A stretch of DNA of 42,904 nucleotides, from assembly GCA_030145195.1 (NCBI GenBank), contig JAQYVY010000032.1, positions 1-42,904 on the forward strand. The letters are read 5' to 3'. The notes beneath the pieces were generated by a model. That model did not search any database. It was not told the DNA's origin and saw only the letters and a list, made by a program, of their open reading frames with translations. Positions 10,674-42,904 of the stretch are shown in pieces. This stretch comes from Desulfuromonadales bacterium. GTDB lineage: Bacteria; Desulfobacterota; Desulfuromonadia; Desulfuromonadales; BM103. The position numbers and the translations under genes are program-made. Within the stretch, counting starts at the first letter, position 1. Each line of letters starts with the position of its first letter.

Positions 10674-12242
10674 TTAGTTCATTCTCAAAAAACAGCCTGG
10701 GTCCTTCTCTTTGAGCGGATCCAGACCCCACCCGTAAGTTACTGCCAAACAGCCCCCACAGTTTGCGCGCAAGCGACAATCCGCACAGTCATGACAGCCT
10801 TGTCTATATGATTTGGCCGCAGTTGAGTGATAAATCTCTGCCAGGGTCTGATGATTGATGTCGCCGATCAGTGAAGGAAGCTTACGACAAGCGTGGATCT
10901 GGCCATCCGGCAGGAGTGAGACAAAATTGAAGGCAGCGCCGCAACCGAAACCAGTGCAACCACCAAACAGACTCTGTTTGTTCTGTTCCAGTTTTATGTT
11001 GATCAAGTTGTCTTTTAGCGCCATTACAGGGTTGTGTCGGCAAGCTTGTAAATAGTCCTCGACAAAGGTTTTGTATTCGGTTGCTCCGGGAGATTCGAGG
11101 TTCGCGCCTTCGCCAACCATGGCCAACCGATTGAAGGTAAATAGGTCAACGCGGTCGCGCAGTATTTCCGCGAGCGGGAGAACCTGATTCAGATTGGCCT
11201 GGGTCATGGTCAGCATGACCATTGAGTAGACCTGTCTTTCTTTTAACAGGTCGAGGAAGTTCAACACCGATTTGAAATTACCTTTGCCACGAATCAAGTC
11301 ATTGTGTTCCTCTAAACCTTCCAGACTGACCTGATAAAAAGCGGGCCGGGTAATCTGCAGAACCTCGTCCAGCTGGGTCTCAGAAACCGGGTTGCCTAAA
11401 ATTGCCAGATTCAGGTTGCGCTCATGGGCCGCCTGATAAAGTTCTGGAAAGTCGGGGTGCAGGAACGGGTTGCCCCCAGAGAAGGTGACTTGGCCGCCGA
11501 CTTGATGTTGACGACAGAAGCTACGCATCTGATCAAGGATGTTGAGGCCCTGCTCCAAGCCTACATCGGAACGCAAGCTGCGATCGTAGCAGTGACGGCA
11601 ATGCAGGTCGCAGGTGTTGGTGATGTGCCATTGCAGGGTAAAGGTTTTTGCCTCCAGATATTTTTCGGGAGTGGTCGTGGGGGCCGGAAATTCAGATAAA
11701 TTTCGGCGTAGCTTCGATGGCGGTGCCACGATTAACCCGCGCCTTACAGCCCGGTCAAGTGCCGCATCAATGAGGCCTACTGGTTGCTTTGTCTCCTCGG
11801 CGACGGCTTCAGGGGAGAGTTGTTCAACTACGGTTTTGAGCGCCAGCAAATCTGCTGGTGTTGCCTGTTCCTCTCGCTCTCGGCCACCTTGCGGATGGCG
11901 CCAAAACAGTAATATTTGCGGGTCAGGCTTTGGGCTGGACTCAACGCCAGTGAGCAAGGGTAACAGTTGCCAGTTAACTTGAACAAGAGTCAAACTGGGG
12001 TTGACCTGGTACTCATCAGAGCTTGCACTCAATACCACCTTGTCGTTTTGAGTGAGTTGATAACGGGCCAATTCAACCTTGGCCAGATCGGGCAGGAAGC
12101 CTGGCATTTGCACCTGCAGGGCATAATCAGCGACCCGTTCAGGAAAATTGTCAGGCTTTGTAAGCTCAAAGCTGTTCTGCCAGAATTGCTTTGGCAGAAG
12201 TTTTGAGCTTACTGGGAATATGTTTCTCAGGTGCTTCGACAT
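10674..12242 (-). CDS. Radical SAM/SPASM peptide maturase, selenobiotic-family type
   Basis: A 522-residue cytoplasmic radical SAM enzyme. Residues 1-200 look like a precursor-binding or winged-helix-like region. CDLHCRHC at 211-218 is the CxxxCxxC motif that binds the catalytic 4Fe-4S cluster, followed by GGNPFLHPDF in the SAM-binding part. The C-terminus is Cys-rich (CTGFGCG, HACRKL, CHDCADCRLRANCGGC, GCF), a SPASM/twitch region binding auxiliary clusters, as in enzymes that modify ribosomal peptides. The gene follows a peptide gene with two UGA codons, and this pairing matches what I recall as the selenobiotic maturase family. The ATG at 12242 was chosen because the longer frame (from 12320) would start inside the terminator hairpin. 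The reaction on the peptide is not known. Confidence 0.9.
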   Translation of the reverse strand: MSKHLRNIFPVSSKLLPKQFWQNSFELTKPDNFPERVADYALQVQMPGFLPDLAKVELARYQLTQNDKVVLSASSDEYQVNPSLTLVQVNWQLLPLLTGVESSPKPDPQILLFWRHPQGGREREEQATPADLLALKTVVEQLSPEAVAEETKQPVGLIDAALDRAVRRGLIVAPPSKLRRNLSEFPAPTTTPEKYLEAKTFTLQWHITNTCDLHCRHCYDRSLRSDVGLEQGLNILDQMRSFCRQHQVGGQVTFSGGNPFLHPDFPELYQAAHERNLNLAILGNPVSETQLDEVLQITRPAFYQVSLEGLEEHNDLIRGKGNFKSVLNFLDLLKERQVYSMVMLTMTQANLNQVLPLAEILRDRVDLFTFNRLAMVGEGANLESPGATEYKTFVEDYLQACRHNPVMALKDNLINIKLEQNKQSLFGGCTGFGCGAAFNFVSLLPDGQIHACRKLPSLIGDINHQTLAEIYHSTAAKSYRQGCHDCADCRLRANCGGCLAVTYGWGLDPLKEKDPGCFLRMN

Positions 12243-12270: not shown

Positions 12271-12313
12271 AAAAAATCGGATTGGCCCTGTCTATCGCCA
12301 GAACCAATCCGAT
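12271..12313 (-). terminator. Terminator/attenuator between the selenopeptide and its maturase
   Basis: On the minus strand ATCGGATTGG (12313-12304) and CCAATCCGAT (12285-12276) form a perfect ten-pair stem around an 18-base loop, followed by a run of T. It lies after the peptide gene and before the maturase start, so most transcripts should stop here. Read-through would give less maturase than precursor, the usual RiPP stoichiometry. Confidence 0.8.
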
Positions 12314-12353
12314 CATACAATAAGGACCGAAAATTTTCAGTTAGCTGACTTGT

Positions 12354-12372
12354 TTGATGCCAACGGCATCAA
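12354..12372 (-). promoter_or_regulatory. Putative bacterial SECIS element for the second Sec codon
   Basis: The minus-strand transcript right after the TAA stop forms UUGAUGCC-GUU-GGCAUCAA, an eight-pair perfect stem with a GUU loop. The loop G is 24 bases after the second UGA (12390-12388), within the distance used by SelB-dependent bacterial SECIS. No U run follows, so it is not a good terminator. Confidence 0.75.
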
Positions 12373-12741
12373 TTATTTGTGCCCGCCTCAGCCACTACCG
12401 CCCATCTTCTGCTCTTTGACTTCTTCCGCAGCCTTGGCCTTTTCTGCGGCTTCTTTGGCCTTCATGCACGCATCGCTCATCTCGCCTTCTTCCGGGCATT
12501 CGGCAAGTTTTGCTGCTTCGTCAGCGCTCATGGCATCGTCTTTACTGGCGCTGCAGCCGCTTTTGCCACTACAGCCGGTGGCTCCGGAACTACTTTCTTT
12601 GTCGGCACCAACTGTGCCGTCAGTTTTGCCGCCTCAGCCAGTGCCCGCGTGCAGGAAGCTTGGTGTCATCACCCCGACTGCAGACACCAGGGTCGCGACG
12701 CCAAGACCGGCTAGAACCTTTTTCAGCTCTTTAGCATCCAT
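12373..12741 (-). CDS. Selenocysteine-containing radical-SAM-modified precursor peptide (two in-frame UGA)
   Basis: Reading through two UGA codons (12636-12634 and 12390-12388) gives 122 residues ending at TAA. The leader MDAKELKKVLAGLGVATLVS runs into a hydrophobic, signal-like stretch and then AGTG-U-GGKTDG (Sec36). A Cys segment TGCSGKSGCSASK (Cys57, Cys63) comes next, then a long Ala/Glu/Lys helix with Cys82 and Cys92, and finally GGSG-U-GGHK (Sec118). AAGGAG lies 7 bases before the ATG, and a TTGACA/TAAATT promoter is upstream. The two Sec sites share a Gly-x-Gly-Sec-Gly-Gly context. Each has a hairpin of SECIS type at the proper distance, and the radical SAM gene follows directly. With standard decoding the product would stop at 35 residues, and normal gene finding would miss it. 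It is most likely a ribosomally made, modified peptide. Export and activity are unknown. Confidence 0.88.
12600..12622 (-). promoter_or_regulatory. Putative bacterial SECIS element for the first Sec codon
   Basis: Inside the coding sequence, downstream of the first UGA (12636-12634), the transcript forms CGGCAC-AGUUG-GUGCCG, a six-pair stem with a five-base loop. U-A and G-C pairs extend it beyond one A-A mismatch. The loop G is 22 bases after the UGA. The GUU loop matches that of the second hairpin (12354-12372). Confidence 0.72.
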
Positions 12742-12830
12742 AGATACGCTCCTTACTTTAGAAAAAAGCTGGTTAAAGAGGCTCCGTTGGTTTGAAACAA
12801 TGGCCCCCTTCGAAATGAACCTCGACTCAA

Positions 12831-12858
12831 AATTTATCGGTAAAAGCGAGTATGTCAA
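12831..12858 (-). promoter_or_regulatory. Candidate sigma-70 promoter of the selenopeptide gene
   Basis: On the minus strand a perfect TTGACA (12858-12853) and TAAATT (12836-12831) are 16 bases apart. The predicted start leaves a leader of roughly 80 bases before the ATG at 12741. Confidence 0.5.
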
Positions 12859-12990
12859 GGTTCATGGTCATGATAGACAGCTCAACTCTCTCAATGAAAA
12901 ATTACCAGAGTGTCGAGGCTTTCTCTCAAGTTGTAGCGGGTGTTCCCTGTTGAAGTTAAACCGGCTCCACCAAAAGATGATCAAATGGTT

Positions 12991-13014
12991 ATGACTCCGT
13001 CATGACGGAGTCAT
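12991..13014. promoter_or_regulatory. Perfect 24-bp palindrome between the selenopeptide and PAP2 genes
   Basis: ATGACTCCGTCA followed by its exact reverse complement TGACGGAGTCAT forms a gapless palindrome in the divergent promoter region. There is no T run on either side, so an operator for a dimeric regulator fits better than a terminator. The regulator is unknown. Confidence 0.55.
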
Positions 13015-13102: not shown

Positions 13103-13840
13103 ATGTTCAAGCGTTCACTCTTGATTGATTTTTCCGTCCCCTCTGTTGCGGTCGTGTTGGCTGTCTGCACCGAATACACCGGGCTGGATGTCTGGCTAAG
13201 CCAACAATTTTATGACCCTGTTCTCGGGGTTTGGCCTTATGGAGAGCATTGGTTGACTCAAGACCTGCTCCACATCGGCGGCCGCGATCTGGTTGTCGCC
13301 ATGGCTACTGTCCTGCTGCTCCTGTTTGTTGGGTCTTTCCTCCTGTCAGGGCTGAAACCATACCGCCGGGATCTGGCCTTTGTTCTGGTCGCTGGGATCA
13401 GTGGACCAATCATTATCGGCGGGTTTAAAGCTTTGACGCATATCTACTCGCCTTGGGATTTGCAGATCTTCGGTGGTGAGCAGCCATACATTCGAATTTT
13501 CGACACTGTGCCAAGCCAGGCCCCGGTCGGGCACGCCTTCCCCGCAGGGCATGCCAGTGGTGGTTTTGCCTGGTTCAGCCTTTTCTTTGCCCTGCGACAG
13601 CGCGCGGTACCCAGCTATCGGCTCAGTCTGCTGGTGCCTCTGCTCCTCGGGATTTTGTTCGGTCTGGCTCAGCAGGCCCGTGGTGCACACTTTTTAAGTC
13701 ATGATCTGGTCACCCTGGCAACCTGTTGGATGTGCGCCGAGGTGTGGAGTCGGTTGTTTTATGCCAACGTGCCTCACCCTGCTACTCCTGGCGATCTTTC
13801 GTCTGGCACAGCCAATTATTGTTCCAAGGAATGTCTATGA
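13103..13840 (+). CDS. PAP2-superfamily membrane phosphatase
   Basis: A 245-residue polytopic protein with about five hydrophobic segments. It carries the three PAP2 signature blocks: KALTHIYSPWDL (variant of KxxxxxxRP), PAGHASGG (PSGH block) and ARGAHFLSHD (SRxxxxxHxxxD block) with the catalytic His and Asp. Members remove phosphate from undecaprenyl-PP, phosphatidyl-glycerophosphate or lipid A in the inner membrane or at its periplasmic face. A 4-base ATGA overlap couples it to the LTA-synthase-type gene, and a two-component system follows. Together they suggest a regulated envelope lipid modification, perhaps lipid A dephosphorylation with head-group transfer. The substrate cannot be read from sequence. 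Confidence 0.88.
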   Translation: MFKRSLLIDFSVPSVAVVLAVCTEYTGLDVWLSQQFYDPVLGVWPYGEHWLTQDLLHIGGRDLVVAMATVLLLLFVGSFLLSGLKPYRRDLAFVLVAGISGPIIIGGFKALTHIYSPWDLQIFGGEQPYIRIFDTVPSQAPVGHAFPAGHASGGFAWFSLFFALRQRAVPSYRLSLLVPLLLGILFGLAQQARGAHFLSHDLVTLATCWMCAEVWSRLFYANVPHPATPGDLSSGTANYCSKECL

Positions 13841-15807
13841 AAACATCGCGCTTCAATCTATTAGTGATCATTGCTGTGGTCGCCGTAACCTTGTTTTTTT
13901 TGACACGTCTGACGCTGCTTTCTTACAGTTGGTCACAAGCGGATCTTTCCGCGGGTAGTCTCGTGCAGGTTTTCGCTCGTGGGCTGCTCTTTGATGTTGG
14001 CTTCTGCGCCTATGTCCTGATTTTACCTGCCCTCTACCTGTGGCTGCTCCCAGAGCGGCTCTGGCAGTTGCGCCTGCATCGCTACGGGATGCAAACGCTT
14101 ACTTTTATAGCTTTTTATGCGCTCACCTTTATTGCCATTGCTGAATACTTTTTTTGGGATGAGTTTAGTGTCCGGTTCAATTTTGTCGCGATTGATTACC
14201 TGATCTACCGCCGAGAAGTTACAGCAAATATCTTCGAATCCTATCCCGTCGTCCCCTTGTTAGCTGGGGTTCTGGTGGTCTCGGCGTTCATTTGCTTTTG
14301 TCTGCGTCGTCCCATTACCCAGGCGTTGTTCTCCAGAGAAAGCTTCTCCAGAAGGACTCTGGTTGCTGTGATAGTTCTGCTGTTGCCGCTTGCTGCCTAC
14401 GCCGTGCTCGATCAGTCGCTACGCACCGTCTCTGAAAATACTTACCAGAATGAACTTGCCAGCAATGGTCCGTACCAATTCGTCGCGGCCTTTCGCAATA
14501 ACGAACTCGATTATTTGAAATTCTACGAAAGTCTTGATCCTGAGGAAGCCTCGGCCTTGCTCAAACAGGAAGTTGCCGAACCGAACGCGACTTTTCTCAG
14601 CGATGAACTTTTCGATATCAAGCGGGATATCGTGCAGACCGGACCGGAAAAAAGACTAAATGTCGTTTTGGTGATGGTGGAAAGTTTGAGTTCGGATTAT
14701 CTGTCCTTTTTTGGCAACAAGGAACAGCTGACACCGAATCTTGACGCTCTTATTGACCAAAGCCTGTTCTTTTCGAAATTTTATGCGACCGGCACTCGAA
14801 CCACGCGTGGGTTGGAAGCCGTGACCCTGTCAATCCCGCCGACACCGGGCCGCTCCATCGTCAAGCGTATCGGCCGGGAAGGTGATCAATGGTCGCTTGG
14901 CAATGTGCTGAATACCAAAGGTTACCAATCTTTTTTCGTCTATGGTGGCCGCAGCTACTTTGACAACATGGGGGCCTTTTTCGGGGGCAATGGTTACCAG
15001 ATCGTGGATCAAGCGACAGTGCCAGATAGCGAGATTGGTTTCACCAATGCCTGGGGTATGTCTGATGCTGACCTTTACCGCCAAGCAATCAAAGTGGCGG
15101 GTAAAGTTCACACCGAGAACCAACCTTTCTTCCTTCATCTGATGACGACTTCCAACCACCGACCTTATACTTACCCGGAAGGGCAAGTAGACATCCCTTC
15201 GGGTACAAATCGTGCCGGGGCGGTAAAATACACCGATCATGCGATTGGCGAGTTTTTGGCTGAAGCGGCAACGCAACCCTGGTTTGATGACACTCTGTTC
15301 GTCATCGTCGCGGATCATCAGTCAGGCAGTGCTGGCAAGCGCGCGCTCCCAATAGAACGGTACCATATTCCGCTTTGGATCTATGCTCCGCAACATATCA
15401 CTCCGGGACAAGTCGAGCGTCTGTCAAGTCAGATTGACCTGGCCCCAACTTTGCTCAGTCTGCTTAACATGAGTTATCGTTCGAGTTTCTTCGGCAAGGA
15501 TATTTTGGCAATGAACCCAGATCAGGAACGCGCTCTGATCGGCAATTACCAGAACCTCGGTCTGTTTGATGGGCAGTCCATGGCAATCCTTGGCCTACAG
15601 CATAAACTGCGGTTGCAAGAGGCTTTTGCGTCCGAGCAGGTTGTTGAACACACTGCACAAAAGTCACAAAGTTTGATACAAAAGGATATTAGCTATTATC
15701 AAGGTGCCGCCTACGTCTACCGCAATCAGCTCAATGCCTGGCAAGCGCCAGACGGCGGTGTGGCACATTCTCAGGTGACTGCCAAGGCTTCAACCCTGGC
15801 ACTGTGA
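13837..15807 (+). CDS. LTA-synthase-family membrane sulfatase/phosphotransferase
   Basis: The 656-residue protein has an N-terminal block of about five transmembrane helices (to about residue 200) and a periplasmic alkaline-phosphatase-superfamily domain. Metal and catalytic motifs are visible: VVLVMVESLSSDYLSFFG (metal-binding Glu), TGTRTTRGLEA (nucleophilic Thr region) and VIVADHQSG (Asp-His). The layout matches LtaS-type enzymes, which transfer phosphoglycerol or phosphoethanolamine groups from phospholipids. In Gram-negatives, relatives decorate lipid A or periplasmic glucans. The ATG at 13837 was chosen because AAGGA lies 6 bases upstream and it gives an ATGA overlap with the PAP2 stop. 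The longer frame would overlap the PAP2 gene by over 100 bases. Confidence 0.88.
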   Translation: MKTSRFNLLVIIAVVAVTLFFLTRLTLLSYSWSQADLSAGSLVQVFARGLLFDVGFCAYVLILPALYLWLLPERLWQLRLHRYGMQTLTFIAFYALTFIAIAEYFFWDEFSVRFNFVAIDYLIYRREVTANIFESYPVVPLLAGVLVVSAFICFCLRRPITQALFSRESFSRRTLVAVIVLLLPLAAYAVLDQSLRTVSENTYQNELASNGPYQFVAAFRNNELDYLKFYESLDPEEASALLKQEVAEPNATFLSDELFDIKRDIVQTGPEKRLNVVLVMVESLSSDYLSFFGNKEQLTPNLDALIDQSLFFSKFYATGTRTTRGLEAVTLSIPPTPGRSIVKRIGREGDQWSLGNVLNTKGYQSFFVYGGRSYFDNMGAFFGGNGYQIVDQATVPDSEIGFTNAWGMSDADLYRQAIKVAGKVHTENQPFFLHLMTTSNHRPYTYPEGQVDIPSGTNRAGAVKYTDHAIGEFLAEAATQPWFDDTLFVIVADHQSGSAGKRALPIERYHIPLWIYAPQHITPGQVERLSSQIDLAPTLLSLLNMSYRSSFFGKDILAMNPDQERALIGNYQNLGLFDGQSMAILGLQHKLRLQEAFASEQVVEHTAQKSQSLIQKDISYYQGAAYVYRNQLNAWQAPDGGVAHSQVTAKASTLAL

Positions 15808-15872
15808 GAGTTATCTGCGATTTGATGACCGGGCTTATGTGGCCCCGTTGACGGCCCGAGGACTTAGAAAAG

Positions 15873-16550
15873 ATGCGAATCCTGCTTGTGGAAGATGATG
15901 ACCGGACGGCTCAGTTTGTCAAAAAGGGCTTTAATCAGGCGGGCTACGCTGTTGACCGTGCCGCCGATGGTATGGAGGGGCTCTTCATGGCCCAGGATGC
16001 ACCATATGATGTCGCCGTGGTTGACATCATGCTGCCCAGACTTGATGGGCTGGCTTTGATTGAGCGCTTGCGCAAACAGAAGATTAACCTGCCAATCATT
16101 GTTTTAAGTGCCAAAAAGACTGTCGATGACCGCATCATCGGCTTGCAGACCGGTGGTGATGATTATCTGGTCAAACCCTTTGCTTTTTCTGAACTGCTGG
16201 CGCGGGTCCAGACTTTGCTACGGCGCAGTCAGTCTCAGGAAGAGCCGACCCGTTTGACGGTCAACGACCTGACCATGGACATCGTCCGGCGCAAGGTCAC
16301 TCGCGGTGAGGTAGAAATTGAACTCCAGCAGCGCGAGTTCGCCCTGCTGGAGTATCTGCTGCGCAATGCCGGGCGGGTGGTTTCCAAGACCATGATCATG
16401 GAGCACGTCTGGGACTACAACTTCGATCCGGAAAGCAATGTAGTCGAATCAAGAATTTGTCGTCTGCGGGAAAAGATTGACCGCGCTTTTGCACACAAGT
16501 TGATCCATACCGTGCACGGCGTTGGCTACCTGCTGGAAAAGAAGGATTGA
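15873..16550 (+). CDS. OmpR-family response regulator
   Basis: A 225-residue cytoplasmic regulator. The receiver domain has the acidic EDDD (residues 7-10), phospho-acceptor Asp51 in VVDIMLPRLDG and Lys101 in LVKPF. The C-terminal winged helix (about 125-223) includes LQQREFALLEYLLRNAGRVV and VVESRICRLREKID, typical of OmpR/PhoB-type DNA binding. It lies 65 bases after the LTA-synthase-type gene. One base separates its stop from the ATG of the sensor kinase, so the pair is co-translated. It probably controls the envelope genes upstream, by location only. Confidence 0.95.
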   Translation: MRILLVEDDDRTAQFVKKGFNQAGYAVDRAADGMEGLFMAQDAPYDVAVVDIMLPRLDGLALIERLRKQKINLPIIVLSAKKTVDDRIIGLQTGGDDYLVKPFAFSELLARVQTLLRRSQSQEEPTRLTVNDLTMDIVRRKVTRGEVEIELQQREFALLEYLLRNAGRVVSKTMIMEHVWDYNFDPESNVVESRICRLREKIDRAFAHKLIHTVHGVGYLLEKKD

Positions 16551-16551
16551 C

Positions 16552-17922
16552 ATGTTTCGAATCCTCGCTGTCCGCTTGACCCTACTCTATACCTTGCTGT
16601 TCTCCCTGCTGGCGCTGGTGGTCTTCAGTCTGATCTATCGCAGCCTGGAGGCTGACTTGATGTCGCGAATTGACACTCTCCTGCTAAGCGACGGGCAGGA
16701 GTTAGCCGGGGTCTATCGAAATGAGGGCCTGGCTGTACTCTTCTCCGAAGTTCACCTCGAAGCAGCTGAGGAAGGGACTGAAAGAGCTTTCTACCGGGTC
16801 TATTCACCCGAGCGTCAGCTGATAGAGACTTCCGACCTGACCGCGTGGGATGGCCTTCCGATCCGCTCAAGCTTGCTTGAAGACCCCGCAGAAACGCGTT
16901 TCGAGACAATTCACTTTTCGGGCAGTCGCGACCGGGCCCGACTGCTCTTTCAAGACATCGGCGACGGCTACATTGTGCAGATTGGGTTTCTGTTGACTCA
17001 GGATGAACAGTTGCTGGCGAACTTCGGCAAAGTGTTCAGTGAGGCCTTTGCCCTGTTGCTGCTAAGCGGCGGTGGTATTGGGTTTCTGATGGCACGCCGG
17101 GCTCTGGCTGGCATCGAGCAGGTGCGTCGTTCCGCTGATCGCATCAGTAGGGGCGATTTGTCGCAACCGATTTTTGCCAACGGCGGTAGTGTGGAAATCG
17201 AAAATCTGGTTCACTCCTTCAATTGGATGCAGGAGCGGATCCAGACTTTGATCAGTGAGCTGCAGGATGTCACAAATAATGTCGCTCATGACCTGCGCAG
17301 TCCGGTGACGCGCATGCGTGGGTTAGCTGAAACGACTTTGACCGGGCCACAGACCTTGGAAGAGTATCGGGATTTGACCAGTGCTGTGATCGAGGAGAGC
17401 GACCGTTTGGTCGGCATGATCAATACCATGCTCGAGATTGCTGAAACCGATGCGGGAATTCGCCCATTATCGGGAGAGAAAGTTGATTTGACTGAGATCG
17501 TTCATGATGTCACTGATCTCTATGCCTCGGTCGCCGAGGATCAGGACCTTGTGTTCCACACCCAGATCCCCTCGCATGAACTGCTCGTGACGGGTGACCG
17601 TAGTCGGCTACAACGCGCTTTCGCTAACCTGCTCGACAATGCTCTAAAGTTCACCCCGAAAGGCGGCCGGGTCGCCGTAACTTTGCTTCAGGATGACGGC
17701 CAGGCTCTGGTGGTTTTTGATGATAATGGCCCCGGTATCTCTGCCGAGAGTTTGCCTCGTGTCTATGATCGTTTTTTTCGCGGTGAGCAGAGTCGGACAA
17801 CCGCAGGCAGTGGCCTCGGTCTCAGTCTGGTTAAAGCTATTGTCCAAATTCATGGTGGACAAATTGAGGTCGCGAGTTCTCCAGACCAAGGCTCCAGATT
17901 CACGGTCAGTTTGCCGTTGTAG
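16552..17922 (+). CDS. Membrane sensor histidine kinase
   Basis: A 456-residue inner-membrane kinase. TM1 spans about residues 8-28. A periplasmic sensor loop of about 130 residues follows, then TM2 (about 163-182) and a HAMP linker (ARRALAGIEQVRRSADRISR and beyond). The phospho-acceptor His246 is in VAHDLRSPVTRMRG (HisKA). The ATPase domain has N, G1 and G2 boxes: NLLDNALKFTP, DDNGPGI and GSGLGLSLVKAI. AAGGA precedes the ATG at 16552 by 6 bases. It pairs with the response regulator one base upstream. The signal is unknown; a cell-envelope cue is the natural guess from the PAP2/LTA-synthase genes. Confidence 0.95.
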   Translation: MFRILAVRLTLLYTLLFSLLALVVFSLIYRSLEADLMSRIDTLLLSDGQELAGVYRNEGLAVLFSEVHLEAAEEGTERAFYRVYSPERQLIETSDLTAWDGLPIRSSLLEDPAETRFETIHFSGSRDRARLLFQDIGDGYIVQIGFLLTQDEQLLANFGKVFSEAFALLLLSGGGIGFLMARRALAGIEQVRRSADRISRGDLSQPIFANGGSVEIENLVHSFNWMQERIQTLISELQDVTNNVAHDLRSPVTRMRGLAETTLTGPQTLEEYRDLTSAVIEESDRLVGMINTMLEIAETDAGIRPLSGEKVDLTEIVHDVTDLYASVAEDQDLVFHTQIPSHELLVTGDRSRLQRAFANLLDNALKFTPKGGRVAVTLLQDDGQALVVFDDNGPGISAESLPRVYDRFFRGEQSRTTAGSGLGLSLVKAIVQIHGGQIEVASSPDQGSRFTVSLPL

Positions 17923-42619: not shown

Positions 42620-42904
42620 TTATTTCACAATCATTTGTCCAGGATGGTCAGCGACGACCCGGCCGATGTGGAAGGCGTTGCAGCCCGCCGCTTCGAGTTC
42701 TGAGGTGAGTTGTGACAGTTTATCAGCGGAGACCGAGATCAGTAGTCCGCCAGAGGTCTGTGGGTCGGCGAGGATGTCTGTGATCTCGGCTGACACCCGC
42801 TCCCGATTGACCACTTTCGGCAGATAGTGCTCACGGTTGCGATAACTGCCTACCGGAACCATGCCGATCGCGGCCATTTCCATCACTTGCGGATAGACGT
42901 GCAG
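42620..42904 (-). CDS. selD: Selenide, water dikinase (selenophosphate synthase), C-terminal part only
   Basis: The minus frame is open from the right edge to TAA at 42620, giving about 94 residues of the C-terminus. It contains DILADPQTSGGLLISVSADK and ELEAAGCNAFHIGRVV, the SelD C-terminal signature (DPQTSGGLL). SelD makes selenophosphate from selenide and ATP, the selenium donor for selenocysteine tRNA and selenouridine. The catalytic N-terminal Cys/Sec and Lys lie outside the window. Its presence shows that the organism can make selenocysteine, in line with the two UGA codons in the peptide gene at 12373..12741. Confidence 0.95.
   Translation of the reverse strand: MHVYPQVMEMAAIGMVPVGSYRNREHYLPKVVNRERVSAEITDILADPQTSGGLLISVSADKLSQLTSELEAAGCNAFHIGRVVADHPGQMIVK

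Follow-up and report, generated by a model that had tools for sequence, protein, structure and literature searches.

SbtA and SbtM are the precursor and maturase of a ribosomally synthesised and post-translationally modified peptide (RiPP), and SbtM is said to make thio(seleno)oxazoles, a finding reportedly due to Lewis et al. 2021 (Biochemistry 60:3347). According to the available text of PMC11002830, SbtM converts Cys to thiooxazole, and Cys and selenocysteine (Sec) substrates lose four hydrogens. A 2026 review lists, in its accessible part, a "Selenobacteriocin" with TIGR04081, the motif SGUG and two Sec (PMC13188914). The bufferins and captophorins, as presented in the available portions of PMC12452194 and PMC12668002, carry a 5-thiooxazole on Cys that is made by an MNIO enzyme (PF05114) with a partner containing DUF2063 and a RiPP recognition element (RRE). 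Here we describe an SbtA/SbtM locus in a 42,904-nucleotide stretch of a Desulfuromonadales genome (contig JAQYVY010000032.1 of assembly GCA_030145195.1), called the window below. A minus-strand selenopeptide gene with two in-frame UGA codons was confirmed at 12741-12373, beside sbtM. We consider it quite probable that in this sbtA-sbtM cassette the UGAs, with selenocysteine insertion sequences (SECIS), are read as Sec, and that the product is an exported peptide gripped by a module of SbtM and bearing SbtM-made seleno- or thiooxazole rings. The SbtA/SbtM family and its chemistry were already known, and the locus is a further member; the new elements are the predicted SECIS for each UGA, with one hairpin past the stop codon, and the homology, seen in profile comparison, of the SbtM N-terminus to the partner module of MNIO enzymes. 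The features that carry the argument are the following.

12373..12741, minus strand: sbtA, 122-codon precursor gene with two in-frame UGA codons (sequence; TIGR04081 profile match)
12749..12754, minus strand: ribosome-binding site AAGGAG, 7 nt before the sbtA ATG (sequence)
12643..12741, minus strand: SbtA leader, residues 1-33, Sec-signal-like, with a charged start, a hydrophobic core and a small end residue
12634..12636, minus strand: UGA codon 36, predicted selenocysteine (sequence, SECIS test, UGA/Cys comparison)
12603..12619, minus strand: predicted SECIS hairpin 1, CGGCAC-AGTTG-GTGCCG, loop 20 nt after UGA 36 (bacterial SECIS script)
12571..12573, minus strand: Cys57 (TGT), in the same motif as the UGAs (precursor comparison)
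12388..12390, minus strand: UGA codon 118, predicted selenocysteine (sequence, SECIS test, UGA/Cys comparison)
12354..12372, minus strand: predicted SECIS hairpin 2, TTGATGCC-GTT-GGCATCAA, loop 23 nt after UGA 118 (bacterial SECIS script)
10674..12242, minus strand: sbtM, radical SAM/SPASM thio(seleno)oxazole maturase (TIGR04082 match)
11697..12221, minus strand: SbtM N-terminal module, DUF2063-RRE homologue (profile-profile comparison, structure model)
11187..11624, minus strand: radical SAM domain with CDLHCRHC (PF04055, motif)
10776..10943, minus strand: SPASM domain (PF13186)

The sbtA frame starts with an ATG at 12741 and ends with a TAA at 12375-12373, exactly where an earlier note on this DNA had placed a 122-codon frame with its own ribosome site and two TGA triplets. 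The common Gly-x-Gly-UGA-Gly-Gly context that it had described reads GTG-U-GGK at codon 36 and GSG-U-GGH at codon 118. The "selenobiotic" family that it named, TIGR04081/TIGR04082, was borne out as well: the read-through SbtA scored 44.1 bits against NCBIfam TIGR04081 (curated cut-off 30.5; residues 1-27 aligned), being the sole match to this model in the whole genome, and SbtM scored 683.5 bits against TIGR04082 (cut-off 350) over the full-length profile. As both proteins exceed these cut-offs, the sbtA frame is not due to chance. SbtA also has family motifs of the G-x-G-[U/C]-[G/S]-G type, in which U/C stands for Sec or Cys, and the predicted product runs on past residue 35, where further conserved motifs and the second UGA are found. 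On the plus strand, an overlapping open frame of 214 codons (12350-12994) lies opposite sbtA, and the UGA-terminated open reading frame (ORF) of sbtA stops at 12634; it is plausible that gene callers miss sbtA in favour of the opposite-strand frame or the short ORF.

The adjoining gene, proposed in the earlier note to be a CxxxCxxC/SPASM radical SAM gene, is indeed sbtM, with its CDLHCRHC motif and its SPASM domain. Its start was taken by judgement at the ATG at 12242, the open frame extending to a TTG at 12320. In an alignment of 43 SbtM rows, C211, C215 and C218 were invariant, as were eight SPASM-region Cys within residues 429-517. By analogy with the described enzyme, an oxazole ring at the Sec and Cys positions of the window SbtA is likely. 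The same note had called the product of the family undescribed; this does not hold for the chemistry, given the thiooxazole formation by SbtM (PMC11002830), and does hold for the function, as no tested biological function of the SbtA/SbtM family was found in the accessible parts of the literature. The locus resembles the described SbtA/SbtM system in having the same families above their cut-offs, a UGA in SGUG and a radical SAM/SPASM gene adjoining the precursor, and the listed "Selenobacteriocin" in family and Sec number (PMC13188914, accessible part, in which no SECIS or module analysis of the TIGR04081 family was found). It differs in the genome, in having two UGAs and a same-motif Cys in one precursor, and in a second hairpin past the stop; these features may have been described in part by Lewis et al. 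2021.

A selenium peptide is predicted because each in-frame UGA is followed by a SECIS-type hairpin. An Rfam scan of the window gave nothing at gathering score, and near sbtA just weak matches to unrelated families, so bacterial SECIS (bSECIS) were tested by script. The rules given in the available text of PMC13188914 are a loop of 3-9 nt with a G in the first two places, a stem of 4-16 bp, a distance of 16-37 nt from the UGA and a minimum free energy of at most -7.5; our script was stricter than this wording, with G and then G or T in the loop and a gap-free stem. Both sbtA UGAs passed, at -9.1 kcal/mol and 20 nt for UGA 36 and at -9.4 and 23 nt for UGA 118, and they are among the 30 TGA triplets, out of 1693 in the window, that did so. 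Hairpin 2 lies entirely 3' of the sbtA TAA stop. No passing hairpin was found behind Cys57 of the window SbtA. The 42 nt after UGA 118, folded alone, gave hairpin 2; those after UGA 36, folded alone, favour a different fold, which speaks against hairpin 1 and thereby against the reading proposed here.

For comparison, SbtM loci were collected from a genome-contig scan (25 loci), from relatives (5 of 58 genomes, counting that of the window) and from a sample drawn evenly across the phylum (39 of 395, likewise counting it); nine more loci of the phylum were added and four others extended to longer stretches, giving 67 distinct SbtM loci in total. An iterated leader profile (E 0.01, then 0.6) retrieved 66 frames, of which one false match (L047) and three duplicates were removed, leaving 62 precursors in 54 loci; the real L047 precursor, found by motif and having four UGAs, stands outside the counts. 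Because their leader matches are weak, L089 (E 0.56) and L085 (E 0.038) rest on their motifs. Eleven non-motif TGA contexts (L027, L050, L051, L075, L079) were removed by hand as stops or as lying outside the gene. Motif-UGA frames homologous to sbtA were present near SbtM in 51 of the 67 distinct loci (53 if two duplicate loci are counted, 54 if L047 is counted as well). Seven of the 62 precursors have no motif UGA, five have one, 26 two, 19 three and five four. All 61 precursors that could be placed (L089 excluded) are on the sbtM strand, 57 before and four behind the sbtM core motif. No precursor was recognised in 10 of the 67 loci (L026, L034, L041, L042, L043, L044, L087, L071 (L090), L072 (L091) and L076 (L092)). 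One of these, L044 (genome G450), combines an SbtM above cut-off with a genome in which SelA and SelB gave no match, for which reason its precursor should be all-Cys.

UGA was present at sites 36 and 118 in all five nearest precursors (window included), and no unrelated codon occurs there. The UGA/Cys alternation that the earlier note had proposed to look for at these two sites was absent from them and was found at a third, site 57, which is UGA in L048, L049 and L050 and Cys in the window and L051. Elsewhere in the family, the precursor of L027 is all-Cys, and neither SelA nor SelB was matched in the L027 genome (completeness not given); those of L031 and L089 are likewise all-Cys, although SelB is present. 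Paralogues were also observed: an all-Cys SbtA lies near a four-UGA SbtA in L035, L037 and L065, and in L080 and L082 the Sec-bearing SbtA is accompanied by a second, short paralogue that lacks UGA and has a lipobox.

Within this family, the strict script passed 107 of 132 distinct UGA sites vs 6 of 41 same-motif Cys codons, and the published loop rule 108 and 6, respectively. Among the 25 failing UGA sites, 17 passed at an energy limit of -5, one with the published loop rule and seven with neither; two of the six passing Cys codons are explained by a neighbour's hairpin, since they stand directly before a UGA. Internal UGA sites passed in 71 of 87 cases vs a mean of 7.9 and a maximum of 18 in 100 synonymous-codon shuffles, an excess that protein coding does not explain, and sites near the stop codon passed in 36 of 45 cases, 100 base shuffles averaging 0.7. 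When 89 internal sites were laid in one fixed register, 78% of cells paired, as compared with 22-59% off the pairing axis (other registers, slides), and the compensatory pair types C-G/T-A/G-C, G-C/A-T and T-A/C-G were present. With respect to the stop codon, 75 of the 107 passing hairpins lie before it, 18 contain it and 14 lie behind it. Another of the six passing Cys codons is that of L056, where the C-terminal motif has Cys (TGC) at codon 95 and still a SECIS-like hairpin 20 nt downstream; Sec may have given way to Cys here recently, leaving the SECIS as a relic. In L035, L037, L052, L053, L064, L067, L075, L078 and L086, UGAs come in pairs spaced 3-8 codons from each other; in six of these loci (L037, L052, L064, L067, L078, L086) the hairpin that passes best for the upstream UGA is 26-37 nt from it and 3' of the downstream UGA, so that a single SECIS may serve both.

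The earlier note had made its claim depend on selA, selB and selC, and SelA, SelB, SelC and SelD were all found in the genome. SelB (398.7 bits) and SelA (617.9 bits) are adjacent on contig C39 of the same genome, and tRNA-Sec is on contig C2 (68.1 bits, ARAGORN agreeing). A second tRNA-Sec match (48.2 bits) was rejected, being a tRNA-Trp. SelD runs to the end of C39 and itself looks like a selenoprotein, its in-frame UGA reading SG-U-AAK, so that UGA is probably decoded elsewhere in the cell too. The last 144 bp of the window are identical to the first 144 bp of C39; because of this overlap, selA-selB-selD most likely runs into the right end of the window, ~30 kb from sbtA:

42719..42904, minus strand: 3' end of selD (overlap with contig C39; selA-selB-selD on the same strand)

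The association of SelB with SbtM in the phylum is weak, as SelB is nearly universal there.

Pfam gave no match to the isolated SbtM N-terminus and, on 43 SbtM members, one weak match each to PF09836 (0.062) and PF22106 (0.13), which made a profile-profile test necessary. In HHalign the first ~175 residues of SbtM matched the DUF2063-RRE partner of MNIO enzymes at 98.7% (E 4.6e-16) over 169 of 181 columns, which take in the RRE as well as the helical part bearing (Y/F)LxDLARLEWA. The score was 107.5; none of 30 column shuffles exceeded 18.1, and the reversed profile reached 29.8 (21.6%, E 0.00099). The SbtM profile matched 104 of 107 DUF2063 proteins at E <1, vs 1 of 107 when reversed. SbtM aligns from DUF2063 profile column 63 onward, the first part of the DUF2063 domain being missing. 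A predicted model of the domain (pLDDT 94.8) had TglHI as its sole Foldseek match below 1e-3, and the first 19 VIA-align rows were, by their labels, RiPP enzymes or partners. Profile searches of the Protein Data Bank found no RRE chain with the RRE alignment as query, and just 3DEE, at 0.0097, with the DUF2063 alignment. Judged by these profiles, the SbtM N-terminal module and the DUF2063-RRE partner of MNIO enzymes are homologues. This homology, together with signal-peptide-like SbtA leaders as in the MNIO system, was not found in print.

SbtA leaders look like signal peptides. Averaged over the 62 precursors, hydropathy is 1.6 for residues 9-28, which are thus hydrophobic, and -1.2 for residues 36-90, which are not; residues 1-9 carry an average net charge of +1.6. 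A lipobox occurs in 12 (strict) or 18 (loose) of the 62, with no strict match in residues 43-140. Likeness to the bufferins and captophorins, in the portions of the sources available, extends to the 5-thiooxazole as reported product, the signal-peptide-like leader (some with lipobox), the homologous module and repeated Cys motifs; SbtA/SbtM differs in using radical SAM rather than MNIO, in a module fused to the enzyme rather than separate, and in selenocysteine. Copper peptides are a feature of bufferins and captophorins. The modifying enzyme of the cassette is radical SAM/SPASM and not MNIO (PF05114, for which no genome-wide search was made), and a genome-wide PF09836 search at E 1e-6 gave no match, the DUF2063-like module here being fused to SbtM. 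Tentatively, and without calling it probable, we suggest that SbtA/SbtM is the selenium branch of the bufferins and captophorins. Radical SAM and MNIO, unrelated oxidases, would make the same 5-chalcogeno-oxazole, the former anaerobically and the latter aerobically, with one signal-peptide-recognising DUF2063-RRE module. The exported products would be seleno-metallophores in which as many as four Sec are encoded, most of these with a SECIS to themselves, which for the last Sec often lies past the stop.

In the cassette as we picture it, SelB on hairpin 1, and on hairpin 2 past the stop, would bring Sec-tRNA to UGA 36 and UGA 118. SbtM would hold the leader through its N-terminal module and oxidise Sec36, Cys57 and Sec118, which would become seleno- and thiooxazole rings. 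With the leader doubling as a Sec-pathway signal peptide, the modified peptide would be exported to the periplasm, and in relatives with a lipobox it would be anchored as a lipoprotein. There it might serve as a redox buffer or a chalcogen metallophore, the part that bufferins and captophorins play with sulfur alone. The product is thus envisaged as, most likely, an exported seleno-/thiooxazole peptide, and perhaps one that binds metal.

Comparison of neighbours (39 loci, ORFs of at least 80 aa) revealed no widely shared gene besides sbtM, which fits general Sec-pathway export. The largest shared group, of sensor-kinase type, was present in 5 of 39 loci; these counts leave out sbtM and other-strand frames overlapping sbtM or sbtA, as judged by eye. 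Three related Nitrospiraceae loci have flanks in common. On the plus strand of the window, at 13103-17922, PAP2 phosphatase-, LTA-synthase/sulfatase-, response regulator- and histidine kinase-like genes were recognised by eye. Two further elements flank sbtA.

12831..12858, minus strand: sigma-70-like promoter match TTGACA-16-TAAATT (consensus scan; pattern match only)
12275..12314, minus strand: terminator-like hairpin with T run, between sbtA and sbtM (pattern match only)

The latter, with 16 pairs, could set the ratio of precursor to enzyme.

Other explanations of the locus were weighed. That the sbtA frame is accidental, and the plus-strand ORF at 12350-12994 the real gene, is extremely improbable: this ORF is open over 214 codons, against which it is the minus strand that has the start site, the hairpins, the motifs conserved in relatives and the family scores (homologues were sought for the minus-strand frame). 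UGA 36 might instead be mainly a regulated stop that yields a 35-residue leader at low selenium, with read-through or stalling setting sbtM expression via the terminator-like hairpin. The position of that hairpin between sbtA and sbtM (12314-12275) and that of UGA 36, directly after the leader and unchanged in the five nearest precursors, agree with such a switch. We nevertheless hold it to be very unlikely, given that 50 of 62 precursors have two to four motif UGAs, that a SECIS-like hairpin follows 107 of 132 distinct UGA sites and that a same-motif Cys in place of Sec preserves the full peptide.

Many RiPPs have antimicrobial activity, and a secreted antimicrobial would be in line with the label "selenobacteriocin". 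This label is given, in the accessible part of PMC13188914, without a test; moreover, genes for immunity, transport or a peptidase are not widely shared beside sbtM (39 loci, several short), and a lipobox in 12 to 18 of 62 precursors would anchor the peptide, so an antimicrobial role appears unlikely to us. We regard as similarly doubtful that the module arose by convergence, SbtM having a generic RRE and no special tie to DUF2063. With the RRE model, many RiPP enzymes match at similar Z, TbtB and MibB ranking above TglHI, and the SbtM alignment starts only at profile column 63; against this, the match covers the helical part as well as the RRE in 169 of 181 columns, far exceeds its shuffled controls (107.5 vs at most 18.1) and extends to 104 of 107 DUF2063 proteins vs 1 of 107 reversed.

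The exported, ring-bearing selenopeptide thus remains our preferred explanation. The locus is a clean two-Sec member of its family, backed by a predicted SECIS for each UGA, by Cys exchange and by the full sel set. If its module is shared with MNIO partners, one substrate logic would serve two chemically unrelated enzyme classes. The shared module, if true, would moreover suggest an exported metal or redox peptide, testable by bufferin-type assays.
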